Origin: Cinnamomum chago
Lineage: Eukaryota; Streptophyta; Magnoliopsida; Laurales; Lauraceae
DNA length: 64,000 bases
Assembly: GCA_038049695.1 (NCBI GenBank)
Contig: CP142453.1
Coordinates: forward strand, 116,786,001 to 116,850,000
Direction of reading: 5' to 3'
A model generated the notes under the pieces. The model was not told the DNA's origin. It made no database searches and worked only from the letters and a program-made list of their open reading frames with translations. A program made the translations under genes and the position numbers. Of this stretch, positions 1-29,815 are shown piece after piece (the first letter of the stretch is position 1; each line of letters starts with the position of its first letter).

Positions 1-1020
1 CAGAGGTCGTCCTACTGTTGGTGTTGTTGCGTCGAAACACAAAGGAGCAAAAGAGAGATTCGCTAAAAATGCCTGTTATCATTGTTCATTATCATAAAAT
101 TGATTGATTACAAATGCTCCTCAGTACCTCTCAATCAATCCACTACTTTTCACTATTGAAATAATGTTCATTAGTGCGTGCCTGCCCTAAGTAAGGGGCA
201 TAATGTCATCTTTAATAAGGGTCTATCCAGCTGAGGATTAGTGGAATGAAATTATCCAACTGGCTAATTTCTTCTTGAGGTCAACGTCCACCCTCGCTTC
301 TAAGCGGTCATAATCGTAGTCGAGCCCATAAAACTATTGTTGTGCTGTTTCATATCACCAATTATTAGTTTTAGAATAAGTGGTAGCTCAATAGGGGGTA
401 AGATCCTACATTTCTCACAAAATTTGAGGTGAAAGCAGGTAGAAAAGAACTTTTCGGAAGAAATTGGTAAAGTTTTATTAATTAAACACACAAGCACAGC
501 CTCAATTTTCTGTCATATAAGAAAAAAACTTCATTGTAGGAATTCATATAATTGTTCAACCCAATGAAACTATAGGTAAAGCAGGTAAAAGAGTCACTTG
601 ACATTTGCAGTTAGAAAGGTCATACATAGTATTGGTGACTTTTTTTAAAAAGTGCTTTACTATTATGACCTTTTCATAAAACAACATTTAACCAATAAAA
701 TCATGATTTATTTCTAAAATATCACTAAATTTTATAGTAATTGGGTAATCACAATAAAACCATGAAAAACCAGTTGAGAAATGAAAGTGCTCTTTGTATT
801 CTAAAGAATGTGTATTTCAATGAGCCTTTTAGTATTTCAGAATGAGAATATTTATTATGCTTTTTATTTTCCCTTTTGGTTTTTATCCATAACTTAAGTG
901 GTAAGTTTTTTGTATCTACTCTTACCCAAAAAAAAAAAGGATTTTACCATAAAAATACTTTCCATGACCAACAGTATTAGTCATTATTCACTGATACATA
1001 TCAAAAAATTGGTTTTACCA
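1..1020. other. AT-rich intergenic stretch
   Basis: No convincing gene, domain or structured repeat was seen. The open frames here are short and have no recognisable protein similarity. Confidence 0.6.
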
Positions 1021-1192
1021 GAGGGGTAGCTCAGTTGGCCAATAACAATAGTTTGCACTCAGAGGTTGTAGGTTCAAATCTGCACTACCACAGTAGGACT
1101 ACGTGGGACTTTACCAAGTTTTCCTTTGGGCCTGGAGGAATTAGTTCAGCCCAAAGAATTGGAAACCATCCGATAGCACCAAAAAAAGAAAA
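1021..1192 (+). repeat. tRNA-derived SINE-like element
   Basis: The head resembles a tRNA gene with a polymerase III A box (TAGCTCAGTTGG at about 1027) and a B box (GGTTCAAATC at about 1071) roughly 44 bp apart. It is not a functional tRNA, because the arms do not pair well and no anticodon stem is evident. It is followed by an unrelated body and an A-rich end near 1180-1196, the usual build of a plant SINE. The ends are approximate and no TSD was confirmed. Confidence 0.45.
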
Positions 1193-1199
1193 ATACTCA

Positions 1200-2106
1200 A
1201 GACATAAAAGCCGCCTTGTGCTTCAATTGCACCATTTGTACATGTTTAAGGTCTAAAAAAATAGTGGTGAATCTTAGAATTAATTTATAATGGAATACAC
1301 ACAAACAAAAAAATATCATTCGAGAAGTTAACCGAGGTGAATTGAGAAGAACAAAAGAATTAGGGTGATAAATGACTGTATTAGTTGAGGCTCCAATACC
1401 CATAGAAGGCGACAACACAACCAATAGAGAAAAAGAATCAATGCAAAATCACATAAAATAGATTCTTGAAGATCCTATCTTTATAAAAAATAGTGACACA
1501 TTTGTTTCTCATTGCAAAGAATGACAGTGACTTCATCCCTATTGTGTCCACGGGCTTCCTAAACGCTATTATTATATGTATACATTTGTAGCATGTTTAT
1601 TTCTTTACTGCCGTTGGTGGGAGCCCAGGGTACAAAACTGTTGGTGGGAGAGCATGGGGTTTTAGACTTCGAGTGCATTGGTGATAATACTTTTCTAAAG
1701 AGTCATCTAGCAAGATTGCTCCACTCGAACTTTTTCAAGGCCTTAGTACTTGACTTGCAATTCTTGAATCTGAAAGTCACTAAAAATATTACACATCAAA
1801 TTAAATATATATGGGCTAATATGAGATTTTGCTTCAATGAGAATAAAAACTATTGTTGGATTCATCACATTTAAAATATATTAGGAACTTCAATAAGATA
1901 AAATCCATTCAATCTCATGGTAGGAAGCACTTTCATTGAAGTGAATTTTGATGAGTGCCTAAACAGAAGGAAAGGGAGAATGAGAAATAAATTTCGAAAC
2001 CAGAGTGATTAAACAGATCATTAGTTAAAATTTCTCATCCCCACGAACCAGTGCTCTTGTTCTAGGGATGTCAATGGATCCCCAATTACTAGGTTGACTA
2101 TAATAC
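1200..2106. other. intergenic, no gene seen
   Basis: AT-rich sequence with only short open frames and no recognisable protein or element termini. Confidence 0.5.
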
Positions 2107-2616
2107 TCGCCAACTAGGGGTGTAACGGTTCGGTTAACCGGTTAATTTGGGAAAACCGTTAACCGAACCGTAACCGCGGTTTTCTGTCTTTAAAAACTGT
2201 AACCGTAACCGTATCCACAAAAACCGTGAAAAACCGTAACCGCGGTTAACCGTGTTAAACGGTTCAGTTACGGTTAATAACCGTGGAATGACTTCCTCAC
2301 ATAATGGGATAAATTTGAATGATTGAAGGTAAAATGACACATAAAGAGCAATTAAATAAGGTAAGAAATATTTCATTCAACTCCCTTATTTTTTTCTTTT
2401 ATTTGTAAACGATACGGTTAACCGCATATGGTTAACCGAACCGTATGATAAGGTTCGGTTCGGTTAATAACCGTAACCGAACCGAACCGTGCGGTTTTTT
2501 GATTTCATTAACCGTAACCGTAACCGAACCGTGAAATACGGTTATTAACCGCGGTTCGGTTCGGTTCGGTTCGGTTAGACGGTTTTCCGGTTTTTTTTTA
2601 CACCCCTATCGCCAAC
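2107..2616. mobile_element. hAT-like non-autonomous element with 8-bp TSD
   Basis: The element proper is 2115-2608 (494 bp). It starts TAGGGGTGTAA and ends in the complement, TTACACCCCTA. It is flanked on both sides by the identical 8-bp TCGCCAAC (2107-2114 and 2609-2616). An 8-bp duplication is typical of the hAT superfamily. The interior is an unusual low-complexity array of AACCG/CGGTT words in both orientations, able to fold extensively. It encodes no transposase. Confidence 0.8.
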
Positions 2617-4964
2617 TATAATATCCAGACTATGAACCCTCCTTTCATACGAGATTGATAATTGCGTCTAGTCTAGGCCCACATTCACAGTTTGGGCCCG
2701 ATTGATGAAGTCTTGACTCCAAACCTAAGTGCTCCTATTCGGATGTTTTGCACCATGCGAGACAACCAGTGGGGCCCACCTTGAATCCTTTATTACTCCT
2801 CCGAATATCATGGGTCCCATGGGTTTTAGATTGATCCAAATGTGACTCATCGTTGAACTCAAATGATGCATTTCAAAACCGTTACATTGAGGGCCACATC
2901 TAAAAGGGTTTTGAGGATGAGCAAATGGATCCACCTTACCCATGATTGGTGGGGTCTCAAGTGGGCCCCACCACACAGGGGGAGGGCCCTTATATATATA
3001 TATTAAATATAGATAATGTTTTCATAAGATGCAGATAATCGGGCTCGTACGGCCCACCAATTGCCCCCATCTGATTTGGCATTCATCAAGACTTTGAGTC
3101 TTGAATTTTTAAATTCGGTCAAACCCATTCGAGTTTTTAGACATTGGTTTTGGTATGCCAGATTTCATTCATCTCAATCTTTACATCTGAGATTTGGTAA
3201 ACCCCTATCCAAGCACAATCCTTTTCATCCTCTACCCCTTCTCATGTTGGCCACATTGGGCTCTTGCCCATCAAGCTTACGCTCGATGTTTCTCAAAAAA
3301 TCTAACCTCACATATTTGGGGCTTAGGGTTTATTTGTGTAACATCGTGGAAGAGGAACCATGGAAATGCAAGCCGGATGGAGAGGTCAGACTCATGTTTC
3401 TTAAGTAAACAAACCGACCATTAAAGGAATTTCACGTGTAACTGCCTATATTTTAGACAATTACAAATGACAGCTTTATTCTTGTTTTTACAACTAACAA
3501 TATCTACTAATCTTAAAATCTTACTCAACTACTTTAATAAGAGCATTGAGAGGACAATTTTTGACCGCTGAAGAAATTTGACATATTATGATGAAAGGAC
3601 AAAATTCTCTTCAAAGTAACTCGTTCTAGACAAAATTAAGAGAGTTAATCATGGTTAGAGCTTAATAACCTCGTCACGTTATCATCTCGAATTAGTCTAA
3701 ATCAAGTTATATCAAAGTGGGTTTTCATCATTTTTTTGACAAAATTCAACTAATCTCATCAATCAATCGATAATCAAGCTAACAATCAAGACAGTTGACT
3801 AAGACTTTTATTTTGCTAGAGATGGTTATTCGTCAAAATAAAGAGGCAACTAGTTATTTATAATTATAGAAAAATACACCATTATATTTAAAATTTACCT
3901 CTCAGAAATTCAGTAACAGTTAATGGGAAAGTCTTCGAATCATTTGGTTATTCGTGACTTTGTTAATCTGGAGATTAACATATAGAAACCGGTTTATCAC
4001 TTATTAACGCAAATTTGAATACCTCTAGCATTTAAACAAACATAAATGCACATCTGATTTTATGATAAACACTATATTTTTGTGAAGCCTTGATCAAACG
4101 GCTATCCTTTAATTGGGGATTTATTTATCGCACTCCTCTTCTCTTAAAGACGTGATTGAGCAATGAGGAGATAGATTCTGCGAATTGAGGAGCCATAACC
4201 CCTAAAACTCTTTATACTTATGATTTTCATTAACAATTCCATTTCCAACAGCTATTCAATAGGTTTAGGAAACTCTCATGTATTTAACTAATAAGAATTC
4301 TCATTTGATTAGCGTTTTCATTTAATACCGAAGATATGATTTATATGAACTTAAGAATATGATTTATATGAACTCTCATTTCGTTTTGAGTCGCTTGATT
4401 TTCCTTTTAGTCCTGGAGAATTGAATTTAGTAGCTCATATTTTTGCTAAAAGTATATACTGTAGAGCTGTTGGGTCTTTTGTACCTATGTACCCTCCCTA
4501 TGTCTCTTCCTTGTTACTTTTGCTTTGTATTGCTCGTCCTTTATGGTTATTCTACTTTACAAACAGAAAAAAACAGTATGAGATTCTTTTTAATTGCCTT
4601 TGGTCATCCAAGTGGGCTCCACAACCGACGTCTCGTGATGTGGACCCCATTCCCTTAAAGTCTAACAAACATTTGTCCATGCATGGGAATCTCAGATGCA
4701 GCATGAGACATTTACTTTTGTACAACATCGGAGAAGACTATTCTCACTCTACATCAGTTACAACTAACAGGGGAGCATCCCCTCTAATGACTAACCAAAT
4801 TCTCATTTAGTGAGTTTGTAGCGCCTGTTTGATGGTAGAGAAATGAAAATGAGAGAATTTCCCAAAGTTTTTTTTTTTTTTTTTTCTTTTTCTTCTTCTG
4901 CTGACGAGGGTATTTCACATCTTTGAGAGCTAACTATTTCCCAAACACATAAAGTCCCTGCCTC
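2617..4964. other. intergenic with scattered repeat debris
   Basis: No gene is supported. The part at 2640-3060 is GC-richer and contains the word gtgggccccacc, which recurs in TE modules elsewhere in the window. A short TA run lies near 2991-3003. The open frames at 3061-3408 and 4421-4810 show no recognisable domain or exon structure. Confidence 0.5.
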
Positions 4965-5098: not shown

Positions 5099-5652
5099 AG
5101 TTGGAGAGATGGGGAGAAAATTAAGGGCAGACAATCTGTATAGAAGAACCATGATTTTTCTCTAGCAGTGATTCTCCAATGGTTTAGATTTGAATTTAGA
5201 AAATCAATTTAAAGCCATTTCTTAATAAGAAAACTAATTAATATAAAATTAAATTGACATTCTTACTAATAAAAAAACTCAGTTACACCATAGAAAAGTG
5301 TTTTCTACATTACATTGAGGAGAAAAGTGTTTTCTACAACTAGCAAAACCCTATGCTATGCACGGACCACAGAACCATTAAAAGCACAGACTAAGATGTA
5401 TTATTTTTATTAAATAATTTATTTAGTAAACTGTTTAGTCATTTCTTTATTGTTATTTTGATTTTTATGAGTTTTTCCAGATGTTTTATTATTTACGTAA
5501 GGTATAAATGGAGCTTGCTGAAACTCGGGCAGGTGTAAGAAAATTAAATGAAAGACACATTAAAAATAAAACAACATAGTAAGTGAGAGTAAATATAATT
5601 TTAATAACATGAGGTTCACAATATAAACATTCGTATGAATTTTACAAAACTT

Positions 5653-5893
5653 GGGGCCCACTGATGATTATCAATGGGGCCGTTTTTATGTGGGCCGTTT
5701 TCAGCTACCACAAATGTAAAACCTGGATATTGATGGTTAGTGGAATTTGTGTTGAGTAAGCGGGAGATGTTTCAATGATAAACCTCTTGTGAGGCTCACT
5801 GATCCAAATCATTCAAATCTTCCTACACCTTATGGATAGGCTGTGGCCCAACTTGGATCCTAAACAGAGATAATATAGACACTTAGATTTGGC
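5653..5893. repeat. dispersed module, copy A
   Basis: About 240 bp beginning ggggcccactgatgatta. It recurs as copy B at 6484-6725 in the same orientation with high but imperfect identity, and its second half recurs a third time at about 6357-6445. No coding capacity was seen. It is probably TE-derived, because related gggcccacc words occur inside the hAT element at 10,457. Confidence 0.7.
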
Positions 5894-6356
5894 CACCCAC
5901 TATCCAATCCAATAAAATTTATAGAGAATATTTACAACAGCCACATAAAATATAAGCTTCCATTTTTCCACAATAGAAATGTGTGGGGGCGCACACATTT
6001 CTATGTAGGTTTAAGGAAACCATAATGGAGAGATTTAGGGTGAAGAGATTAGATCTTAGATGAGGATTTGATCAGTATGCTAGAAATGGAAAAGATGAAA
6101 TGGCATTGAGATAATTCGTCATTAAGATAGGATTAAAACTAATCCAAAAATTTAGGATAGGATGGGAGCAAGTGTGCCCAGGCTTTTTTTCTCAACTCCA
6201 TTAGATTATCTCATCCCCTAATCCATTCCTCAAAGATTAATGTTTTTGGAGAAGATAAGTATAGAAGAGAGATTTTAGGGGATGGAAATCAATTTAAATG
6301 GAAAGTAGGAAGGAAGAAAGTTGAGGTGGCGTTTTTGGAGCGTGGCAACACCATCT

Positions 6357-6445
6357 CACCTGTGGGGCGCACTGTTCCAATTCATTCAAATCTGCCTATA
6401 CCTTATGGATAGGTTGTGGCCCAACTTGGACATATAAATCAGAGT
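6357..6445. repeat. partial third copy of the 5.6/6.5-kb module
   Basis: It matches the second half of copy A, from the segment around tgtggggcgcactg to ttgtggcccaacttgga. It stands immediately upstream of copy B in the same orientation. Confidence 0.6.
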
Positions 6446-6483
6446 TAACTGGATCAAAAACTGGGGCCCACTAATGTCAAACA

Positions 6484-6725
6484 TGGGGCCCATTGATGAT
6501 AATCAATGGGGCCGTTTTTATGTGGGCCATTTTCTGCTACCACAAATGTAAAACCTGGCTATAGATGGTTAGTGGAATTTGTGTTGAGTAAGCGGGAGAT
6601 GTTTCAATGATAAACCTCTTGTGGGGCCACTGATCCAATTCATTCAAATCTTCTTACACCTTATGAATAGGCTGTGGCCCACTTGGATCCTAAACAGTGT
6701 TAATATAGACGGTTGGATTTGGCCA
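6484..6725. repeat. dispersed module, copy B
   Basis: Direct repeat of 5653-5893. It differs by scattered substitutions and small indels, so the duplication is not recent. Confidence 0.7.
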
Positions 6726-8559
6726 AACTAAGTTCTGGCCGTTAGATTTTTAGGACCCTTAAAATCTATTGGCACCATCATTTATTAGGGATGGGGTCCA
6801 TGTTGCTCAAACCTTGTCAACAATTGACTCAATGAGATTTTCCCACCCATCCTTGAACGTTGATGGTTGGTGGTCCTAGATGGCCCTACAACAGAGTTCA
6901 AAGGCGCTCCGGTCTGCACAATTGGACAAATCCACTCACACACACCAGGCTCTATTCAATTAGCATAGATTCAAATTCTACGCTATTGCTGATATTTACA
7001 TGATCATATAATCATAATCGTTATTATGATTATTCAACCATTATTTGGTCAATGGTAATTATAAGAGTCATAGCTCTCTTCTTCTTCCTCTCTAGTGGAG
7101 TTGCAGGCTGACCTCTTAGAGTGTCCCTCTTCTTCTTCCTCGCGGCTGGAGCTGAACTCAGCCATCTTCTTCTTCCTTTCTTCTTCTTCTCTTTCTCTTC
7201 GTAGAGGACCTAATTTTTTTTTCCGAAGGTTTTGTTGAGGAAGTTATGCATAGGTTAGTAGAGGGACATGTGGCCTGATGAAGCAGGACATGTGTCTTCA
7301 TGTGAAGAAGAACAGATGTCAACATACCAAGGGAGACTACATTCCCTTAGTATAATAGATAGCTGCTTCTTGTAAAAGTTGGTTACAAGAAGAATTCAAA
7401 AAGCGAAAAATACATTTCACTGGAGAAAAAAAAAATCTCTCCTCCCTACTTCTCTCTACATCCAAACGGGTATATAGTTGCATGCTCATTGTGGGCTATT
7501 AGCTACATTTTAAGCCCACCTAATGCTCTAATATTTTGGGCCCAGACTTACTTATAGTAGGGCTCATATTTTCAACACTTAAAGGCACTGAAGACAGAAC
7601 ATACAGTGCTATAACTGGACCAGGTTCAATTATCCTGAGCGTGAGCAAGCTCAGTCTTTTTGTTAACCAGAACAGATATTCTTTGATAGGCCCAACCTTA
7701 GGGCACTAAAATCAGGCTCTAACCTCTTGAGTTAATCAAGGGCCTAGCACGTGTTTTGGACGGATAGGTAGAGCTGACTTTCTGTGGCTCTAGTTAGATA
7801 TGACTAGCAGTGTTCATGGGCTGCGTCATCCCCAGCTTGACCATACACTCGGCATGCAAATTCCTGGATATGGGCTGTGATTTTAAGCCCCTTTAGCTGA
7901 TGAAGGGCCCAATTGCTGGCCATGATATTAAAATGGGACGGGAATGGGCTTATTATATATGCCCAGATCGAGAATTTAGGATAAGCTGTGTAAAGATTTT
8001 GCAAATGTCTTGGCCTGGGCCAGACTTTGAGGATGACACACATGGCTATGGGCCCAAATATTAGGTCGAATAACTAAACGAGTGAAGCTTGAACAAGATT
8101 CAGACGGCTTTACTCAGCACAAAAACACTTATAGAGATTATAAGGCGGTAGTCCATTCAATGTTGGGCCTCAGGCTTAATCCCTCACCCTGCTCACATGC
8201 CAATACTCCAAATGTGGGATGGGCTCACCACAGGCCCAGGCTGGCCTTTCACTTATTCATTTGCTCGTGGCATTCTGGAGCTTCAATTCAGACCATCGTA
8301 ATGTGGGGGGTCTACTTGGGAACGATCCAGATACTGTCGGATGTATACTGTTTTGACTCAGAATCGGAACATCAGAACCCAAAATAAAAAAACCGAATGG
8401 GTTGGACCCAACCCACATTAACCATGGCCAATTGGGCGGCAGTAGTTAACACCCATATATAACATTTCAATTTTTGTTTAATATTCATCAGCCTCTCTGT
8501 GCCAATATCATCGGAGCCTTGTACCTCAAATATGAAATGATGACATGCTGTCCTCAACA
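6726..8559. other. intergenic, no gene seen
   Basis: Contains a CT-rich tract with repeated cttcttctt (about 7077-7200). The open frames are short and unconvincing. Confidence 0.5.
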
Positions 8560-8942
8560 TGATGCCAATATCAGTTACCGGTTGGGTTTTGTCTTGTATT
8601 TCAGTTTAGGTGGGTCGGCTCGTCTGGATTGGTCAAAACCGAGGATTAGGGTTAAGGGTGTTTTGGTAATTGTAATAGGATTTTCTTGGGGATGAGAAAG
8701 ACTTTATTGGAGGCCAAGAAAGCGGGGATTATATATATCACGTACTCTATAACCCTACCTCTTGGGGTTGAGATAGAAGAACGACAGATGATCTTTCTTT
8801 TCCACATGGAAGTAGGCAATCTTGCCGAACTACGTAAAATCATTGTGTTCATGTGTGTGATGCTTGATGGCTGGTGTGTTTGTGTTCATCGTGGCTGGTA
8901 TTTTCTGTTGTACTACTCTTTCTAACAAGTAGTATCAGAGCA
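8560..8942 (+). mobile_element. LTR-retrotransposon scar: LTR end plus primer-binding site
   Basis: The segment ends in TCTAACA (about 8927) and is followed within 3 bp by TAGTATCAGAGC (8930-8941). That is one base off the classic plant LTR-element primer-binding site TGGTATCAGAGC, complementary to initiator tRNA-Met. A TATA-like stretch near 8730 would fit the LTR promoter. No gag or pol remains downstream and the 5' limit is a guess. Confidence 0.55.
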
Positions 8943-9869
8943 ACTAAGTCTTTGATTTATTTCTTATGGAAAATTGTTACCTACAAGCAAACCACATATT
9001 GTGCTAATGGGGTCCAACTCAGGGCCCATATGCATCCATATCATTGGAAGTACGATAGATGGAAAAGTATCTTTACGAATAACGTAATAAGAGTCATGTG
9101 AAATATCAATCCAATCAAATTATCTTAATTCTTAATTTAATAACATAAGAAGTTTAACAATCTTTTAACTGTAAAATTATTTTTTCTTTTCAAATTCGAT
9201 CCAATGATTAATAAAGATTTAATGAACATAAAATTGACTCGGGGTGATCAGAGTGTGAAAAGGTTTAATGAGCTGCACTAACTAAACGTGGCAATCCAGT
9301 AGGCCACTCATAAAAGAAGATTCTCCATCTGTAATATATAGTTACCTATTACTTATCACAATATGCTAAATATTTTCCCTAAATTTAATTTCAAATAAGG
9401 TGGGATAGCTATCAAATTGATGGGGCAGAAAATATAATTGTGTATTTCACAGATAATCTACAGAAAGAAGAATAAAAATTGGTTTTCTAATTTCTTGTCA
9501 AATATGAGGACAGGTTCCAAGCTGCATTCGATATTATATCAGAGGCTGCAATGCACTCGAACAAGCTCCTGTTCAATTCTGATTCCAAGACAATGTAATG
9601 TGTCCTTGTCAATCCACAAGACTCTCTCAATGGAAGGAAGCATAAGTTCTCTCTCTTTCTGCAAGATAATCAGAAATAATGGTCAGGAGAAGACCCAAGT
9701 GTTTGCATATTTGCAGATGGGACGCGTGCCACGATTATTAAAAAAAGTCACATCACAAACATCATCTTACACGAGTGCGGATTTTCTGAGGCCTTTGACC
9801 TCAGGGACAGTTGCCATCTCACACGCATATCCTGATTCGGGCAAAACATCACAATGTGCCCACCGGTTA
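8943..9869. other. intergenic, no gene seen
   Basis: AT-rich sequence with no recognisable coding sequence or element ends. Confidence 0.5.
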
Positions 9870-10004
9870 AAATTTGACCAGCGGTGCTATGCACCCCGGG
9901 GTGCCTGGGATCCGTTGGATCCCAGAGTGTTGGATCCCAGGCACCCCGGGTCCGTCCGGGGTCTGGATCCCGGGGTGCGTAGACTTTTTTCAAATTTGAC
10001 CAGC
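9870..10004. mobile_element. small GC-rich palindromic element between direct repeats
   Basis: A 109-bp GC-rich insert (9883-9991) sits between identical 13-bp copies of AAATTTGACCAGC (9870-9882 and 9992-10004). It is built of inverted blocks: CTATGCACCCCGGG on the left, CCCGGGGTGCGTAG on the right, and several GGATCC words between. Its right end, read outward, is AAAAAAGTCTACGCACC, close to the AAAAAGTCTATGCACC terminus of the large MULE that starts 10 bp further on. A short relative sharing its terminus is therefore likely. A 13-bp duplication is not typical of MULEs, so the mechanism is unclear. Confidence 0.5.
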
Positions 10005-10456
10005 TCAAAATAAACAAAAAGTCTATGCACCTTGACTTGAGATCCCGATCCGACGTGGTCAGACTTTTTGGTGGTCCAGCTGGACTCCAGCTGGACCACA
10101 CTTTGAGCCAAACAAAAAGGAGAGAAAGAATGGGCGTCATTATTGTTCGTTGTAGTCTGCTGCCCGCCTGTTTTTGAAAGAAGAAAACGCAGCTGAGTGG
10201 AGAAAGGGGAAAACGCAGAGCAAATCTTCCCATCTCCTCAACGATCGACCCAACCTCTCTGCAAATCTCCAGAGCTACTTTCTCTCTCTCAATCTCATCT
10301 CGTTGACACTGCTGCAGCTCTCTCTCTCTCTTTCTCCATCAAACAGGTATGTATTCTGTATGGAATGCAGTGTTCTTCTTCTTCTTCCTCCTCCTTCCTC
10401 CTATTTGATCCTTCCTTCCTACCTTTTCAGCTCTTTTGAAACTGTCTTCTTTCAAG

Positions 10457-11042
10457 CAGGGCCGGCCCTGGGCAAGGGCTGTAAGTGCCCTTGCCCCGGG
10501 CCCATTTTTTGAGGGGGCCCAAAATCCCTAAAATCCCTTCTACTTTTTTTTTTTTTTTTTTTTTCAATCATTTGGTGAGGGCAGGGCTCATCCAATGGAT
10601 TCCATCGTCCTGGGCATCAATAGACTCATCATCAAATCATCTGAGAGTGCTTATTGCATCACTTATTTGAGCATCCATCAGAGGGGCCCACCAATGATAT
10701 TTTATATTTGATGGCTGAAATTCTGGGAAAATCTGGTCTAGTGTTGGGATGATTTAGGGCTTTTTTTTTTACAAATAGATCAAGCCTTCAGTCCTACACC
10801 CGTTCTTCTCATTTGTTAGTGGGGCCCACCAATGATTTTTAATTCCCTATATATGATGCTTAAATTCTGGTCTGAGTTTTCTTTCTTCTCTTTTTTTTCA
10901 AATAGTTATACTTGGGCATCATCAACCCATTACCAATTTTTCACATCAGTGGGACCCACCAATGATATTATCATATATGATGGCTGAAGAGACCTAACTT
11001 TTACTCTTGCCCTGGGCCCTGAAAAATTCAGGACCGACCCTG
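10457..11042. mobile_element. hAT-type non-autonomous element nested in the MULE arm
   Basis: The 586-bp insert has termini CAGGGCCGGCCCTG and CAGGACCGACCCTG. Perfect 8-bp CTTTCAAG copies flank it (10,449-10,456 and 11,043-11,050). The matching place in the right arm (about 14,230-14,242) has only one copy of that octamer and no insert, so it is the empty site. Inside are three diverged units each containing ACCCACCAATGAT (about 10,685, 10,823 and 10,953). It has no coding capacity. Confidence 0.88.
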
Positions 11043-11496
11043 CTTTCAAGCTTTGCGTGAATATTCTGTTATGGGGTCTTTTTTCTTTCTTGATTTCGAT
11101 CTATTGGTATTTTTGTTGATTCCATTTCCTTATATTCCTTTGATGGTGTAGTGTTCTGATCTATGATATTCATCTGGGTTTGTCTTCTTTTACATTGATT
11201 GAGTGAAGATGCTTGAAAACTTTTTTTTTTTTCCTTTGGTAACTGGTGATTGTGCATTTTGGGTGTTTTCAGTTAAGTGTTTCTGAGTTATTGGAACCCA
11301 GGTCACATGGATGGGGTAATTTGACTGGCTGAAATTTTCATGTGCCCCTTTCATGTACCTCCCACGCAAATTTTCATCGCACTGTTACAGCATTAAAATT
11401 TCTGGTCATTTTGCTCTGGCAGAGTCTCCTCTCTGAGACCCATTTTGAATTGACTCAGGATAATCCTGATGAGAGTAATCCTCACTAGAGTTTTAC

Positions 11497-11689
11497 CTGT
11501 AGAATAGTCAATCACAACAAATGCCCATTTTCCATTTGAAGCCAATTCCAGCATTTTTTGGTTCCAGCCACTGAAAGTGGTGAGGCTTCCCAAAAAATCT
11601 GTGGTAAGTCCAATGGCTAGCAGGTCTGAGAAACGGCTTATGTCGCCTTTATAAATGATGCCTAACCACCCCATCAAGAAAGATCCAAC
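11497..11689 (-). pseudogene. captured fluoride exporter (CrcB/FEX) exon, left-arm copy
   Basis: One 193-bp exon of a plant FEX-type fluoride channel, with an AG acceptor and a GT donor still at its edges. The protein segment contains the CrcB pore motif LGSLTTFSGWNQKML, preceded by GWLGIIYKGDISRFSD. The rest of the FEX gene is absent, so it cannot make a channel. It differs from the right-arm copy by at least one residue (Asp for Gly in the VVIxYSTG segment). Family assignment rests on recalled FEX motifs, not on a database search. Confidence 0.75.
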
Positions 11690-12266
11690 CTATGTAAAAA
11701 TATGTGTAATATAATCATTACCCCGATTGGCAGAACAATGAGTTAATAACACAAATAAATAGTCAAGAGCAATTTATACAATCAGTCATGAGGTAGTCAT
11801 ATGCATCATTCTCATTTTTTAATGCCTAAGGGCCACTTCTAGATACTGAAATGCAGAGGCATTTGCAACACTTGGATCCTTTAAAAACAAAGGAAGTACA
11901 AAAATGATACTTCTGATCCGAACTCTGTAAAAACTATATAAAAAGCCAATTGTCCGCAAACCCAAGCTGTAGATATTGTTGGGATATATTTCATCAGAAG
12001 TTATAGTGGGCTCTAGAATTTGGGATTTAAAAGATGCACCATACCCGATCCTTTTGCAATCGCCAACAATACCTATACATTGATATTGTTATAAAAAAAA
12101 AAAAAAAAACCATACACTGATATGCGATGAACCCCATTATGTTGGATAGGGAACTGAGTTATCCATTTAATTCCCGATATCATATAATTCCAGCAAGAGT
12201 TACACAAGTTATTACTGAATTCTGAATAGGAATTAGGTTGGCGACTTAGGTTGATTTTGGTAATTT

Positions 12267-13014
12267 GATTATTCAGCATGTAACAGAATAGTCATCTCAA
12301 TATGTTAAAGTGTTAAGATCAGATTATAGGAGAAGGAGCTATTTTGTTTACTTTGGTATTGAATCAAGCATTATTGTATGAAAGTTACTTTAATGGAACA
12401 GAACTCGTCAGTTCTTGAAAATCTAACATTATTAATGAATATATATATAGAGAGAGAGAGAGACAACTTTCTTCCAACTTAGTTAGAATATAAGATAACA
12501 CTTCCTGTTGGAGGGAGTGTTTACCCAGATGGGTATGTGGGTAAATCAGTTTTTTTCTTTGATTGTTTGAACTTTTTTAGTATTGTAGATTGCAATTGAT
12601 AGAATGATGGATTTTGGGGCTGACCCGATTGTGTTTTTTACAATAGAGTATTGAGATATGAACATGAATGCTTGTGTAACTTAAAGAAAGTTTGGGTATG
12701 ATGATTTGTGACCTGAATTCCTGAAATCTATGTTAGATACCTCATGTTTGAATATGTTTTTTTTTTTTTTTTGTGGCCCCCTAAATCCATGTTTTTTGTG
12801 AACTAATCAGCTACTGTCATCAGTTTGGTAAGACAGAGAAAAAGGTATGCAGCTGTATAGATTTTAAGTTGTTGTGACAACTGAAGAGTTCCATGATGGC
12901 AGTGTAAAACAACTCTTTGAGCTACATCATTATTGTAATTTATGTTGTCCTTAAAGATGGAAACTTTTTTGTAATAAAAAGAACACTTTTTTCTAATAAA
13001 CATCAATGCAACAT
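12267..13014. other. spacer between the MULE arms
   Basis: 748 bp of unique AT-rich sequence between the inverted arms. It includes a TATA/GAGA microsatellite near 12,441-12,463 and a poly-T run near 12,757-12,772. No gene is seen. It would form the loop of the palindrome. Confidence 0.7.
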
Positions 13015-14694
13015 AAATTACCAAAATCAACCTAAGTCGCCAACCTAATTCCTATTCAGAATTCAGTAATAACTTGTGTAACTCTTGCTGGAATTATATG
13101 ATATCGGGAATTAAATGGATAACTCAGTTCCCTATCCAACATAATGGGGTTCATCGCATATCAGTGTATGGTTTTCTTTTTTTTTTTTATAACAATATCA
13201 ATGTATAGGTATTGTTGGCGATTGCAAAAGGATCGGGTATGGTGCATCTTTTAAATCCCAAATTCTAGAGCCCACTATAACTTCTGATAAAATATATCCC
13301 AACAATATCTACAGCTTGGGTTTGCGGACAATTGGCTTTTTATATAGTTTTTACAGAGTTCGGATCAGAAGTATCATTTTTGTACTTCCTTTGTTTTTAA
13401 AGGATCCAAGTGTTGCAAATGCCTCTGCATTTCAGTATCTAGAAGTGGCCCTTAGGCATTAAAAAATGAGAATGATGCATATGACTACCTCATGACTGAT
13501 TGTATAAATTGCTCTTGACTATTTATTTGTGTTATTAACTCATTGTTCTGCTAATCGGGGTAATGATTATATTGCACATATTTTTACATAGGTTGGATCT
13601 TTCTTGATGGGGTGGTTAGGCATCATTTATAAAGGTGACATAAGCCGTTTCTCAGACCTGCTAGCCATTGGACTTACCACAGATTTTTTGGGAAGCCTCA
13701 CCACTTTCAGTGGCTGGAACCAAAAAATGCTGGAATTGGCTTCAAATGGAAAATGGGCATTTGTTGTGATTGGCTATTCTACAGGTAAAACTCTAGTGAG
13801 GATTACTCTCATCAGGATTATCCTGAGTCAATTCAAAATGGGTCTCAGAGAGGAGACTCTGCCAGAGCAAAATGACCAGAAATTTTAATGCTGTAACAGT
13901 GCGATGAAAATTTGCGTGGGAGGTACATGAAAGGGGCACATGAAAATTTCAGCCAGTCAAATTACCCCATCCATGTGACTTGGGTTCCAATAACTCAGAA
14001 ACACTTAACTGAAAACACCCAAAATGCACAATCACCAGTTACCAAAGGAAAAAAAAAAAAAGTTTTCAAGCATCTTCACTCAATCAATGTAAAAGAAGAC
14101 AAACCCAGATGAATATCATAGATCAGAACACTACACCATCAAAGGAATATAAGGAAATGGAATCAACAAAAATACCAATAGATCGAAATCAAGAAAGAAA
14201 AAAGACCCCATAACAGAATATTCACGCAAATCTTGAAAGAAGACAGTTTCAAAAGAGCTGAAAAGGTAGGAAGGAAGGATCAAATAGGAGGAAGGAGGAG
14301 GAAGAAGAAGAAGAACACTGCATTCCATACAGAATACATACCTGTTTGATGGAGATAGAGAGAGAGAGCTGCAGCAGTGTCAACGAGATGAGATTGAGAG
14401 AGAGAAAGCAGCTCTGGAGATTTGCAGAGAGGTTGGGTCGATCGTTGAGGAGATGGGAAGATTTGCTCTGCGTTTTCCCCTTTCTCCACTCAGCTGCGTT
14501 TTCTTCTTTCAAAAACAGGCGGGCAGCAGACTACAACGAACAATAATGGCGCCCATTCTTTCTCTCCTTTTTGTTTGGCTCAAAGTGTGGTCCAACTGGA
14601 GTCCAGCTGGACCACCAAAAAGTCTATCCACGTCGGACCACGTCGGATCGGAATCTCAAGTCGGGTTCTCAAGTCGGGGTGGATAGACTTTTTG
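13015..14694 (-). repeat. right arm of the palindromic MULE
   Basis: Inverted copy of the left arm without the hAT insertion. Its outer end has a short local duplication of the TCTCAAGTCGG word and of the CACGTCGGA word. The inner boundary is taken where homology stops, next to TTACCAAAATCAACC. Confidence 0.85.
13592..13784 (+). pseudogene. captured fluoride exporter (CrcB/FEX) exon, right-arm copy
   Basis: Mirror image of the left-arm copy. The exon begins after ...TTTTTACATAG and ends before GTAAAACTC, encoding about 64 residues from VGSFLMGWLG to VVIGYSTG. It carries LGSLTTFSGWNQ, the conserved pore segment of CrcB/FEX channels that export fluoride. Reading continues open to 13,888 past the donor, but that extension looks like intron. 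The rest of the channel is missing, so this is a gene fragment carried by the transposon. Confidence 0.75.
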
Positions 14695-14696
14695 CA

Positions 14697-14883
14697 AAAT
14701 AAATGCTTTGGTAGTCTATAGTGCAGTTTTAAACTATCTCTCAACGGGAGTTGGTTACGCTATAAAATTGATATTTTAATTAAAAACATAATTAATATGA
14801 TTTTATATATTCATTAACCAAGTATTCTAGCAAATAATCAATTTTACTGTCACAGCGACTCCGTTGAGAGAGCATTTATTTTC
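14697..14883. mobile_element. short MITE abutting the MULE
   Basis: Inverted ends AAAATAAATGC (14,697-14,707) and GCATTTATTTT (14,873-14,883), with internal inverted blocks CTCTCAACGG and CCGTTGAGAG. The left terminus overlaps the TSD of the MULE, so the MULE apparently inserted into the tip of this older element. Confidence 0.4.
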
Positions 14884-17044: not shown

Positions 17045-19932
17045 ATGTCTGAAAGAAATTCATGGCGAAGAACTCCGACCCATGGCCGCAAAACGCTGCC
17101 TCCACACCCCAACCACCGTACACTAACCCTCCCTCCTTTCCCTCGTTTGAAGCCTAACAAACCCATCAAAATCCTCCAGCGTTGCTCATCCGAACCGATC
17201 ATCCCAACCGTCGGATCCTTTGAAGAAGACGATCATCGAAGACAGAACCAAGTCCTCACATCTCCCCTGCAATCCATCTCTCCCTCTCCTTATTCTTCTC
17301 AGGTAGTAAATATATACCATCTGGGTCGGTCTCAATTCCTTCTTTTTTTTTTTGCTATTGTGTCTGTTTGTATTTGTAATAAGAGTGTCTGTTGTATCTG
17401 TGTTGTGAAATGTAGAGATACAGAGAGGATTCAAAGGTGGTGGTGAACGTGACGGTTGAGGGGAGTCCTGGGCCTGTGCGGGCCATGGTTAGTTTGGGAG
17501 CAAGCGTAGAGGACACCATCAAGCTCGTTGTGGACAAATATGGCCAAGAAGGGCGAAGCCCTCGGCTCGACCGTCATGCTCTCTCAACGTTCGAGCTGCA
17601 TGACTCATATTTTAGCCTACAAGGTAAGTTTAGTTTAAATTTCTTTTGAAGCATCTGTTTCATTAAAAAAAAAAAAAAAAAAAAAGTTTAGATTTTACCA
17701 AGTAGGCCCAACTGAAGAGCATCACCAAATTTTCCTTTATTTCTGCTGCTATTCCAGATATGGCCTCAAAAAAAAACATCAGTATGTAATGAGAAAGGAA
17801 TTGGGGGAAGTAGTAGAAAGACAGTAGTAATTCTCTTTCAGATTTAGTTGGACAACTTGGGGTTGTTGTAATGTGAAAAGATTTAAGATTTCATAATCCT
17901 TAGTGTATCTAGCTACCAAACTCAAAACCATTGCATCTCAGATCTGGCATACCGGTTTGGCACTTTGGTGTGTCTTGACCCTTTTAATTTAAAATAGAAA
18001 TACAAAAATTGCATTAGAATAGAAAAATAAAAAATTCTCATTTTTTCTAGCTTGCTTTTAAAGTGTTCACAATGTAAATCAATTAATAAACAAGAATATA
18101 AAAGCAGTGAGATCACAGGATTTTTATCAACAAAGCAGTCGATACATGACCGTTTGCATTGGACAAAATGTTTTGTGTTTTATTTTAATCTTCTTTTTTT
18201 TCTCTTTACATGGAGGACTTGTCCTCAGCCTCACACCCCCAATCAGTTCACAACCACGTATTTTGACTACTAGTCAGTCATATTCTTTCATAATTTAAAT
18301 GATGCATATAGTTATTAAAATTTGAGGAGACAATATAAGAGGGCAGGAATTATTTGATCAGTCTGTTTTTGAGGTTACCCCTAATCCATGTGCTTATTTA
18401 TTTGATCAGACTGATTTTTTACGTGGAGTCAATCCATTCTTAGCCAAGCACCTTTCCTCCACATAAACAAGGGATTGATGAATCCCCGGCTGTTGTGCGG
18501 TGCGGGAGTCGGGAAGGCTATATTTGTAGTGGGTGTGTGAGTGTTTACCACATAAAAAATAAAACTTATTTCATTTGCGGGTATTTCTTTTTTCTTCGCT
18601 TAAAAGGCGAATATTTCCTTAAGTCATGCACCTAAGCACGATCCATCAGAAGTGATACGTGCATACACTACTTCCTCGATTCACCACAGACGATACTACT
18701 AATTTCACTCGACTTGATGAATGATTTGTTTTAAAAAAGGTACATAATTTGAGAATTATTATATTTTAGTTAACAACAAAAAATAATAATGTATGGTTAC
18801 GACAATACACTTGTATTGAAAACACTCAATTTTCAAAATAATACACCCAACTATATTTTTTTGGGGATTTGACATATCAATCCCTCTTAAACTTTGTATC
18901 CTCAATTTCACAACCGAAAATCTAACAATGTCACAAGAGTCGTTTGAGGTCTGGTACACTTTTTTTTTTTTTTTTGAACTTTTCTGCTCCAGATCCTTTG
19001 ATATGATAGGAGTTTAAAAACCCAAGATATCATGGGATCCAAACGTTAAAAGTTGAAAAGCCCGTGCATTGAAAAGTCTAAACAGAAGTCTTAACTGACC
19101 TAGATCCCATGATAGCATGGGATTCAAGGCAGAAAAGTTAAAAAATTAAAATTAAAATTAAAAAAAATCGTAGACTAGAGTCAAACGATTCTAGTGAAAT
19201 TAATAGATTTTTAGTCATGAAATTAGAGAAATAAGATTTAAGGGAAATTAATATGTCAAACCCCCTTAAAACAAAATTAAAAGCAGATTGTTCCTCAGCT
19301 TTTTAAAGGTATCAGTCATGGCCAAGTCTTCTATGTATTATAATTACCTTTTAAGATCTTGGTAAACTATCTGACATCAAAAGGAACGGATATAAAGCAG
19401 TGGAGAAGAGAGAGAAAAGGGCCCACATGAAGGGTTCTTTTTCTTTTTCTTTTTCCTTCTTTTTCTTGTACTGGTAAAATGAAGATTGTCACCAGCTGCT
19501 GCTCAACGCTCCTCCTCCCCTTCTTGTTTGTTTGAGAAGCCCCACTCCCACCATCCTAAACACAAGAACACTGTTCACGTGAAACTGATGAAATTCATCT
19601 TGATTAGGTAACAATATGATGAGAAACTAGTTTAACAATAGAAATATTTACAAACTTTTGAGTGGGCTTTGACAGGATTGAATAAATGGGATCGGGTCGG
19701 AGATGTGGGAAGCAGGAGCTTTTTCCTTCGTAAGAGCTGCAGTAGCCGCAGTGACCGGAATATGTTGGAAGAAGAAGAAGGTGGAATAAGAGGAGGCTCT
19801 GAGATTGTTGGCTCTGGTGCTCCAGTGGTTCCACCTCAGCTTTTCTATTCTTTCATTGCTCCAAGGATTAGTAAGATTGGAAGAAGAACAAGGAAAATAT
19901 GGAAGGTCTTAGGTTGTATGGCATGTTCATGA
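17045..19932 (+). CDS. DUF7054 protein, At4g22758-like
   Basis: Three exons, 17,045-17,302, 17,416-17,623 and 19,676-19,932, joined with GT-AG borders and correct phase, encode 240 residues. The N-terminal part is basic and proline-rich, with the family's conserved [13 protein letters not shown] segment at about residues 38-50. Residues about 92-175 form the DUF7054 domain, with [31 protein letters not shown] and [13 protein letters not shown]. The C-terminus ends in a basic [18 protein letters not shown] tail. The match is to the plant family 'uncharacterized protein At4g22758-like', recalled from memory. Biochemical function is unknown; the domain is thought to be ubiquitin-like. The start is the only ATG in frame with the conserved SERN opening. 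Intron 2 carries a foldback MITE. Confidence 0.88.
18863..19266. mobile_element. foldback MITE, copy 3, in intron 2 of the DUF7054 gene
   Basis: About 404 bp. It starts GGGGATTTGACATATCAATC and ends ...AATTAATATGTCAAACCCCC. It is the same family as 15,865 and 16,265. It lies wholly inside the intron and leaves the splice sites untouched. Confidence 0.7.
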
Positions 19933-21935: not shown

Positions 21936-24900
21936 AAACCCTACAAATTCTACCAAGCACAAAAAAGAAGGATAAAAAGGGAGGTTATACAAATAATAGA
22001 AGTAGAAACTTGGGATGCTATTACATTTACTCATGAAGTAAGAGGCATAATGTTAGCAACCAAATTGATTAAATGAGAAAAACCAGGTTTGTAGATTCTA
22101 TTTTGAGAAATGTATCTATCACCCAGGCCACCTCAAAGATGGGATAAGACTTTGATAATATGATGGTAGGATATACTTGTTTTGAAAGTCCACCTGTCAA
22201 GTCCATGCTTTGGGTGGGCTCTAACCTTGTGCAACTAAGGTGTGATGGCCACATGAAAGATTAGATAAATTTATTTGCTATGATGCCCAGATACGGCTAG
22301 GATACGCCATAGACATGGCAGGGACACGGATTTAACACATAAAAAGTGAAATATCGAATACGATACGACACAATACATAGCCCATTTCAAAGTATCTGTG
22401 CGTCATAGTTTATTTGCTGATTTTGAAATGAAAACGAAAGAAATATAAACTTTAATTTTCTATTGGTGATTCTGAATGGATATAAAGTGATGGAGAAAGA
22501 AAGGTAATATTAATAAGTTAATCCTTGGACTAGTAGCTATTTCTTGCATATTATAAGAGATAGAGAACTGCAGCCAGATGTTATGAGGAACAATGAGCAG
22601 AACCATTGCAGGAATGATATATGAGAATGACTTGATGAAGATCCCTTAACAAATAAGAAAACTAAAAGCCACTTGTTGGAGTGCCATCCTTTTACATTCT
22701 TTTTCTTGCATATATAAAATCCCAGTTAACTTCAAAAATAAAACAGTTGGACAAATAACAGGCTAATGAAATACAAAATGAAACCAAAAAATGTTGTGCG
22801 AAAGTGGCGCAGCAGAAGATACCTGCGATCGACGGTCTAGATGCAACATGCATAAACACATGCAATCAATCCACACACACAAGAGACACAGGATTTACGT
22901 GGTTCACCCAAATAGGACTATGTCCACAGGGGACAGTAGGAAGTATATCACTACAACAGTGGAGGTATTATCTCACAGTCCCTAATCCCACAGTACACCC
23001 AGCACCTCAACACTCTCATCTCTCCATGGTGTAGGGAACACCACCTTGCAGAGAGATTACATTGTATATCTCTTCCTCTCTCTTTCTTCCGCTCATCTCA
23101 ACCCAGAGGGAGGCCTCTATTTATAACCTCCATCAGAATGGGAGGGCTTACCATTGCCCATGCTTTCCTAGCTTTGCACCATGTGTGTTGTCAGCTGGCC
23201 CATGTGCTAGCCCATGTCAAGATGTCCTAGCTTTGCACCATGTGTGTTGTCAGCTGGCCCATGTGCTAGCCCATGTCAAGATGTCCCATGAGAAAGTCAA
23301 CAATATAGCTCCTATTGAGCTATAGCCCATTATGCTAACAAAAAAAGTGAGAAATTTTTTCAAAATAATGCTTAAAATTTGGCAGCAAACTCAAACATTC
23401 TAGAGGAACATCTAAAAAAAGGAACACTCCTCATCATCAGATCCTATGGGAAGGCACGAGCAAAAAAAGGAAAAAAGGGTCAAAATTGTAGCGATGGATG
23501 GTTTGAAAATAAAAATTACCATATCAATGTTGAATCTTGTTGTGGCGACACTAATCTGCGGGGCTAAGAATACATCAGCCTGCATATGAAAATCTCTCAA
23601 GTTCAAACTTTGAAGACCACAACAATTTGTAACTTGAACAGTAAAAGCTTGCATAAACATCAGACCATAGACAGATAAGCATGAGGTTTGAATACTTCAC
23701 ACAAATACATCCCTTGACTATCACAAGATAAACCCAAGAATAATGTAAAGTTTGTCAAAATTAAAACATAGTTTCTTCCATCAAAACCTTATAAATATAT
23801 ATAATAGAAATGAAAGAAATAGCCAAGTTTGAGAATCAACTGCATTCGATATTAGCAATAGCATGGTCTTTTAAACAACTACATTAACTATTTGGGAGAA
23901 AGCATAAACAAGTTTTCTTCTAATTTAACTAAGGACAGGTAAGAGGTTTTCACCCCCTTTTTCTTCTTTTCTTTTTCGAGAGTCAAAGACAGGCAAGGGT
24001 TAGGGCGCCTAAATGCATTTCAGGTGGAGACAATGACACAATCAAGTGAGCCAAATTCAATTATTTGTGAACTTAAATAAACCTCGATCTTCAATCAACA
24101 GTAAATCAATCATAAGACAAGGAAAAACATAGTGATTCACTTATCAATGGTTGCTAGATCCACCTTCAATCCAATGGGAGATAGCTCAAACCAATAGGAG
24201 AAGGAAATATAAAAGTGCAAGAACGCAAACTTTTATTCAAAATATAATAAACATATGCAAGAATGAGTTAGTGGACCCTTACAAAGCATATCTATTTAAT
24301 GTTTAAATGCTATAACATCTTCAAAACTTAATATAAAAAAATATAAAAAATATAAAAATCACAGCAATTGATTCTAAACTCATAACATATAAAATCCCTA
24401 AATATTAACATCCTAACATAATCAAAATAAAGAAAGAATATTCCCTTGAGCAACCAGAAGAAAGGCATAGAGAATTTGTTGGACGCAAGGGCATCTTGCA
24501 ATCTTAAGGATGTGAGCCCATTAGCTGTCTTTGTGGAGAAAGCCACACAATCTCAAACCAAATCATCTGAGAAAAAGCAATCTAAACACCTTGCTTCCTA
24601 AATATATGACGCAATCAGGGAAGCCAAATCCAATTGATTATGGGTTCAATAAACCCTGATCTTTAATCAAACACAAAATCTACTCACACAAGGACAAAAA
24701 CATATTCAATGACCGTTGATCACGAATATCCACCATGGATCTTCAATCCAACGGGAGATGCTAAACCAAAAGGAGGAGACAGAAAACTGAACATTGAAGC
24801 AATTTTATCAAAGAGAAAATTATCATAAAACAAGTCCACATGGACATTCCATTAGATGCCTTTAAATCGAAGGATTATATACCAAAAATAATAATAATAA

Positions 24901-27900: not shown

Positions 27901-29815
27901 ATGGGTCATTTGTCTACCAAAAAAAAAAAACTAATGGGCCCAATTTTTATTTTTTTAAGAAAATTCCCTTTTTTAGACATTTTGTCGGTAAGTCTTCATT
28001 TACCCTAACTTAACCTCTAAATTCGGTATTCTCCCCATGTTAGAAGGAGAAAACCCTAATATTATCAAAGGTAGACGACAAATTTTGATAAAGGTAAAAA
28101 CAAATTTATTCGATTTGTGGAAGATAAGTCTTTTGTTGACCCCACTCACTTGAATTTCTGGAGCCGCCAATGAGAGGGATGTGGGATAGAAATTAAGGAT
28201 GGTAAAAGTACTCCAATTTAATAATGACTGCCATCAACTTAAGGGTTTGAAAATTTTAACCATTTAAAATTCAGGTGCTTCAATCCAACTGTGGCAACTG
28301 GCAATACACCTGCAGGGGACGGAGGGTGCATAAGGGTCCCCATATAAGTTTGGCCAGGGGTCTCATTTGAAGATTTTCCTTCATATATGAATCTCTCAAC
28401 AAGTAGCATTGGGGGGGAAACTGCTTTATAACATACCTGAAGATTCAAAGCCTTTTTCTTAACATCAACTGGCAGAAGAGCATTCTGGGGATATTTTTCA
28501 TCCAGATACTGTCCAAATTCAGTACCACCAACAATCAGGAGGAGGTATATCACAGAAGCTTTATAGCATTCCTAAATAGCCTTAAACAATGAAGTCCATA
28601 TCAGCATATATGTGCGGATAAAAGGGGACATGCCAACGGATACAGTGGGGACACGGACTTTAAGCATCAAATGAAGTTTTAGAAATAATACATTGCTTAT
28701 TTTGAGATATCGAAGTATCATAATTCATACCTTCAAAATGTAATAACAACTAAAACGCTGTTAGCATGCAAGTGCTTAAACCAGTTACAAGCCCATGGGC
28801 ACCAAAAGAAGTGTTCACATTCATAGTGATTACTAACCAGCAAGATTGCAAATGAGTCAGAAACCACCAAATCACCTTCCACTAGTACCGGAACAAAATG
28901 AACAGGATTTAATCGCTCAAACTCTGCAATCCAATCAACCAATGTCAATCAATGATTGACCAATAACTACAACCAGAGACACATCCATTGCAATTAGGGG
29001 CGGCAAACAAGTCAAGTCGAGTCCAAATGGGGGGTTGAAAAGGCATATTTACAGGATGAAGTCCAACCATATCTGACCTAGTTTTAGAATGGGTGAAGCA
29101 GCTTCAGACCGCAATTGTTACGGGTCAACCTATTTAACCTGACCCAACCTATAGAAGCTTGGCCAAACCCAATCCATTACAAATATTAAGGCTATATTTG
29201 AATTAAGTTGCAGGCCAACAAAAACCCTATTAAAAGCTCAGCTCATCCCATATAAAATAATGTAATCTAAGTACCAAAATGTTAAACAGGTGGTCCACCA
29301 AATTGTTTGAATGGGTTTATGTATGCAGGTCGGCCATAAACTAACTCATTTAAATAGGTTAGGCAGGTGATGCAAGTTCAACAGGATGACCCTAACCTAA
29401 TCCATTTAAATGTGAGTCAGGTTCTCTTGGTCATGACCCTAACCTAATCCATTTATATGGGAAATTCTAAAAAATGCCCCCTTTTCCTCCCCTCATTTTT
29501 TTTTTGTCATGAGGCCCACGTTGAGTCAATCTAGTCTTTTCACACATACTACCCCCCATGAATAGTCATGAGTCCAAATTTGACACTCATCCGACTTTTC
29601 CTCACCATTGGATTAAAATCATAACAAAATGATGCCTCTAAAATCATTAAATTTTAGGGTCATGGATCAAAAGGTTAGGATGATCTTATGGACTCAAGAT
29701 TTTGCATATAGGTAGGCCTTATATGGATCTTTCCATTCAATGGACTTCCATGATCATCAGGCATCCTAGTGGGCCCAACTAGGAGGGGTGTTTTCTCCTA
29801 AAACGCCCGGGGCGC

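Follow-up and report, generated by a model that had tools for sequence, protein, structure and literature searches.

A probable Mutator-like transposon family with a fluoride-exporter exon in its terminal inverted repeats in Cinnamomum chago

Introduction

A survey of Mutator-like elements (MULEs) gave terminal inverted repeats (TIRs) of 14–500 bp and linked long TIRs with small interfering RNAs (siRNAs) (PMC6446971), and Pack-MULEs whose extended TIRs contain acquired sequence have already been described (Ferguson and Jiang 2012, PMC3310237). Here, we have analyzed a palindromic element of 4,680 bp (10015–14694) in a 64,000-nucleotide stretch of the Cinnamomum chago genome (C3:116786001–116850000, hereafter the window) and searched the host genome (1.06 Gb, 14 contigs) for its relatives, whose numbers are given as lower bounds; 20 stretches of it and two more were examined (loci with L numbers). 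On the basis of these results, we put at about 85% the probability that the window element belongs to a MULE family with a fragment of about 1 kb, one exon and flanking intron, from a gene for the fluoride exporter FEX in its TIR, and that it is a non-autonomous copy which has lost internal sequence.

The window element resembles the extended-TIR Pack-MULEs (PMC3310237) in having long TIRs, a target-site duplication (TSD) and a host-gene fragment, but differs from them in that sequence of the same exon is present in 14 inverted pairs, including those of transposase-bearing relatives. It also resembles Mu killer of maize (PMC3440606), an inverted MULE derivative with the potential for a long hairpin RNA, and one of its relatives (L017) has the transposase start region inverted on both sides. 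The window element holds FEX sequence instead and is known here from its structure. FAR1-type MULEs such as Jittery have FAR1, MULE and SWIM domains, as do the relatives of the window element, whereas the arms of the present family are 1.2–3.5 kb long and include a host exon. In the openly licensed literature, searched by title and the start of the abstract, no FEX-bearing MULE was found and a combined search for FEX and transposable elements was empty; within that literature, a family, transposase-bearing copies included, in which both TIRs hold the same host exon is apparently new.

Structure of the window element

The features of the element are listed in Table 1. It is bordered by an exact 9-bp TSD (CAAAATAAA), a length within the 8–11 bp expected of MULEs; among 2,000,000 random pairs of 9-mers from the window, 74 agreed by chance. 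The inverted arms are 98.9% identical (1638 of 1656 sites, with 18 mismatches and 26 gap columns, the left-arm insert being excluded) and are separated by a centre of 748 bp according to the repeat search. These results agree with the original prediction, which had described a 4.68-kb Mutator-like element with a perfect TSD and near-identical inverted arms around a 748-bp loop; the element is Mutator-like and moved as a unit. Differences between the arms were more frequent in their outermost 96 bp than elsewhere (7/96 and 11/1560, respectively; Fisher P = 3e-5, with a boundary picked post hoc after the differences had been viewed). Each end of the element can form two snapback hairpins, and none of 200 shuffled sequences folded equally well at either end. 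No transposase domain was found in the window element when eight frames were scanned with Pfam, which gave CRCB twice and one sub-threshold match. Rfam at gathering scores had no match within the window, and ARAGORN found no tRNA.

Table 1 Features of the palindromic element (positions in the window)
Feature	Position	Strand	Basis
Left target-site duplication (CAAAATAAA)	10006..10014	.	Exact repeat
Left TIR outer part and family 5' leader	10015..10346	+	Repeat search, folding, donor scoring, family matches
Left snapback terminus	10015-10070	.	Folding
Left second palindrome	10071-10099	.	Folding
586-bp insert, left arm only	10457..11042	.	Arm alignment, TSD
FEX-gene fragment, left arm: intron, exon and 16 bp beyond donor	11481..12266	-	
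FEX/CrcB exon, left arm (193 bp, open frame)	11497..11689	-	Pfam CRCB, splice sites
Start of centre, FEX intron continued	12267..12500	-	83% to donor gene (276 aligned columns, gapped)
Remaining centre, common to same side of longer relatives; 12892-13009 matched at several FEX-bearing loci	12501..13009	.	Sequence comparison
Putative junction of the internal deletion, with about 5 filler bases; CAACATAAATTAC, inverted again at 12935-12947	13009..13021	.	
FEX-gene fragment, right arm	13015..13800	+	
FEX/CrcB exon, right arm (193 bp, open frame)	13592..13784	+	Pfam CRCB, splice sites
Right TIR outer part and leader, mirror-image donor	14342..14694	-	Donor scoring, folding, family matches
Right snapback terminus	14616-14694	.	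Folding
Right target-site duplication (CAAAATAAA)	14695..14703	.	Exact repeat

The 586-bp insert, which the original prediction did not mention, has CAGGG ends and is flanked by an 8-bp TSD (CTTTCAAG; 10449–10456 and 11043–11050); we take it from these features to be of the hAT type. Because it has a TSD of its own in the left arm and the right arm represents the empty site, the insert probably came later than the arms. A separate foldback element of 109 bp was observed at 9883–9991, 23 bp from the main element. Its terminus matches that of the main element at 15 of 16 bases, and a 13-bp direct repeat (AAATTTGACCAGC) flanks it.

A FEX exon in the arms and its donor gene

Both exon copies are preceded by an AG acceptor and followed by a GT donor, and both exceeded the curated Pfam cut-off for CRCB of 32.9 bits (left, 36.2 bits, E = 8e-9; right, 36.3 bits, E = 7.2e-9). 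The phmmer match to a CrcB chain in PDB was weak by itself (E = 0.35). According to our own reading of its motifs against PMC5417652, the exon fits the N-terminal domain (transmembrane region TM2–TM3), with a TTFSGW motif and no following Glu. The likeness to the plant FEX fluoride channel lies in this exon; the difference is that each window arm holds a single exon and no gene.

The parental FEX gene supposed in the original prediction does exist in the genome, at C1:113.49 Mb (L028), where the arm fragment is matched over 786 bp at 98.7% and the start of the window centre over a further 276 columns at 83%. The shared stretch ends 16 bp past the donor site of the exon, and the donor exon is 99% identical to that of the right arm. 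Downstream of it are C-domain exons, one frame with PFGTLSANVLAA, which scored 23.9 bits, below the Pfam cut-off, and another with GFLGCLSTVSTFVAE, which passed the CRCB cut-off in the genome search (C1:113497356). A second FEX gene (L045) is more distant, with 83% identity across 171 bp of the exon and 77% across 287 columns. The CRCB family search of the genome gave 21 matches, of which four fall in these two genes, both on C1, and 17 in the other copies. The CRCB matches in the arms confirm the FEX identity of the exon, which the original prediction had taken from known motifs.

Compared with the donor gene, both window arms have G31D, and G61D is found in the left arm alone. Substitution rates in the exon (19/1737) and its flanks (88/5346) did not differ significantly (P = 0.12, in a test that pools nine arms although they are related). 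We also considered whether the exon copies might have a coding function and found no support for it, with nine distinct non-synonymous and seven synonymous changes in nine arms, a small test. Most probably, the FEX exon is carried along as a passenger.

Distribution of the TIR family in the genome

When positions 10006–10300 were used as a query, at least 71 genome matches were obtained, many of them as inverted pairs (partial matches and the window's own are counted), which shows that other elements with the same terminus exist, as the original prediction had anticipated. The inner arm segment 13015–13591 had at least 27 matches and the FEX exon at least 36, the latter being the two host genes and 34 others. 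Of these 34 non-gene copies, 28 formed 14 inverted pairs within 15 kb and six were unpaired. All 14 pairs, one of which is the window element, have the minus-strand copy on the left and the plus-strand copy on the right, and nine were examined whole or near-whole (the window, L017, L018, L021, L022, L029, L030, L031 and L046). The palindrome is not private to the window element, as these exon pairs, the long arms of L019 and L020 and the end-to-end palindromes of L022 and L030 show.

On the basis of the exon, the copies could be divided into group A with the full exon (the window, L017, L018, L021, L027 and L023) and group B with a partial exon, mostly of 107 bp and ranging from 50 to 107 bp (for example, L022, L029, L030 and L031). 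The TIR is also common to L019, L020, L025 and L026, for which no FEX match was found in the examined stretch (only one end was matched for L025 and L026). At loci with separate arms, arm length ranged from 1.2 kb (L021) to 3.5 kb (L017), and the arms of L019 and L020 are about 2.5 kb; no long arm pair was found in the examined stretches of L023, L027, L032, L026, L034 and L036. Perfect TSDs of 8–9 bp, each different, were present at seven of nine loci with both outer termini, in a pattern search of 16 sources.

Several arrangements among the relatives deserve separate description. L022 and L030 have no spacer and are palindromes throughout (96.6% and 93.6%, respectively). L046 (C1:1761601–1768600) has 3.36-kb arms that are 98.9% identical, with about 220 bp between them and tandem repeats near the centre. 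In L017 (C9:48664001–48674000), the arms at 982–4489 and 5950–9487 are 3.5 kb long and 97% identical, and include inverted copies of the start region of the MULE transposase. In the group B copies (L022 and L029–L036), the FEX pieces were mostly 96–99% like the window and the outer TIRs were 68–89% alike.

Transposase domains were found in four relatives with FEX exon sequence at both ends (L017, L018, L029 and L031). Between its FEX-bearing TIRs, L031 has a SWIM finger besides FAR1 (5.9e-18) and MULE (1.4e-35) domains; L029 has FAR1 and MULE domains in the same position, L018 has FAR1 and SWIM, and L017 has SWIM, together with FAR1-like frames that were assigned by likeness to L029 and L031. 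Taken together, the exon pairs, the donor gene, the transposase between FEX-bearing TIRs and the TSDs at seven of nine loci argue for a MULE family with FEX sequence in its TIR.

The leader and a possible transposase gene model

The leader in the outer TIR ends at a splice donor (CAG/GTATGT at 10346/10347) that ranked fourth of 3037 plus-strand GT sites, as scored by a simple donor matrix with hand-set weights. The region of this donor was found in 13 of 17 sources, in both arms for nine of these 13, and was not found in the other sources checked (L019, L020, L026 and L035). In L017, L018, L031 and L046, at least one copy has an altered base before the GT. The original prediction had treated the leader as a capture by the window element, which does not agree with its recurrence as part of the family TIR, including in L025, where no FEX match was found in the 7 kb examined. 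A separate capture of the leader was ruled out on this ground.

A T-tract followed by TAG, which resembles an acceptor, lies just before the transposase ATG in L029, L031 and the inverted side of L017. In the simplest model, the TIR leader would be the 5' exon of the transposase gene, spliced over a TIR-borne intron to the transposase. Because the acceptor-like site stands directly before the transposase ATG in L029 and L031, the antisense FEX sequence probably sits in the first intron of that gene.

Origin of the window element

By comparison, the window element most likely derives from longer, transposase-bearing relatives by internal deletion. The term Pack-MULE is appropriate insofar as it is a non-autonomous MULE with a host-gene fragment, but this fragment lies within the inverted arms and not between the TIRs. 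L017 has arm and centre twice, once at either side of an internal region of 3.7 kb. The left centre of the window element runs directly into the right arm through about 5 filler bases, and the 13 bases spanning this junction recur inverted at 12935–12947 (Table 1). Random junctions were equally good in 17 of 4000 cases against their own upstream sequence and in 2 of 3794 against random sequence. The junction fits end-joining with templated filler, by which the internal region would have been lost and the arms brought close together; the element presumably moved by transposase supplied in trans.

When a tree was built from the 786-bp fragment, arms belonging to one element paired in all three elements with both arms complete, and private changes such as G31D are common to both window arms. 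Because the arms of one element pair in the tree, homogenisation or re-duplication within elements would be suggested.

Several observations weigh against the derivation from a FEX-bearing MULE family as described here. The transposase frames are fragmented in L017, L018, L029 and L031, and no copy is proven to be autonomous. In L031, where the transposase is clearest, both leader donors read CAA instead of CAG ahead of the GT. L017 and L018 have no TSD, none being found within 3 bases of the ends either. Support for the pairing of arms is weak (ultrafast bootstrap 76, 74 and 59), and in raw distance the right arm of the window element differs less from L021 (4/780, 0.51%) than from the left arm (6/786, 0.76%), which also speaks against homogenisation or re-duplication. 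In addition, FEX pieces are about 98% alike across subgroups and outer TIRs 68–89%, which does not agree with a single simple history. Since the FEX pieces of the group B copies are more alike than the outer TIRs, the FEX and TIR parts have different histories.

Alternative explanations and possible effects

Any transcript through both arms could form a duplex of about 1.6 kb including 193 bp of FEX, and it is possible that small RNAs from such a duplex would reach the FEX gene. That the element acts as a regulatory hairpin, whose transcript would give rise to small RNAs silencing or methylating one or more FEX genes, seems unlikely to us. Consistent with such a role, the arms are nearly identical, the two arms share 140 of 173 exon 21-mers and the donor exon closely matches that of the right arm; in maize, captured sequences have been described as siRNA sources affecting donor genes (review, PMC13317346), and the inverted duplication Mu killer was proposed to act via a hairpin RNA of about 4 kb (PMC3440606). 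However, the latter article found short antisense transcripts unable to form large hairpins, which it offered as a new model. Moreover, exon and flanks have changed at similar rates, and with 34 exon copies beside two genes the window copy is not singled out. It appears improbable that instead FEX-fusion transcripts arise on both strands by splicing of the leader at one end to the sense FEX exon in the opposite arm, the antisense copy being lost with the intron. The leader donor and the FEX acceptor of the opposite arm are indeed on the same strand, the transposase region that would normally follow the leader is missing in the window, and after splicing in silico the frame that starts at an ATG within the exon stays open; against this, a 15-codon frame with a stop lies upstream in the leader and the splice strengths come from the simple hand-set matrix.

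The structure of the single element would also agree with a classic Pack-MULE that took its leader and FEX exon from two genes, followed by head-to-head duplication in the window copy, but leader and palindrome recur across the family and we give this history very little credence. Long palindromes are generally hard to assemble, but an assembly artefact was rejected as very improbable: the arms differ at 18 sites and by indels, one arm alone has a TSD-flanked insert and similar palindromes occur at other loci.

Other features of the window

Host-gene exons elsewhere in the window were observed at 41790–42041 and 44276–44584 (minus strand), 17416–17646 (plus strand) and 28736–28948 (minus strand); they represent enolase, a DUF7054 protein and a glutathione S-transferase N-domain match, the last below the cut-off. 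A 249-bp direct repeat (93%) is present at 5647–5895 and 6479–6725, and a perfect 62-bp near-tandem pair at 23166–23227 and 23225–23286.

Implications

One very doubtful idea is that the FEX fragment has been kept in the TIR since it is useful to the transposon, with a host gene held hostage in the ends of a MULE family that has transposase-bearing members. If true, small RNAs that the host makes from TIR hairpins would also strike its own FEX gene, and strong silencing of the family would be costly. The presence of a host exon in MULE TIRs, next to transposase domains and together with its donor gene in the same genome, provides a natural test of the spill-over of silencing to a copied gene. 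Finally, the series of copies, comprising those with no FEX match, with the full exon, with part of the exon, with extended palindromes and with an internal deletion, may help to order the steps through which host sequence enters MULE ends and these ends grow into long palindromes.

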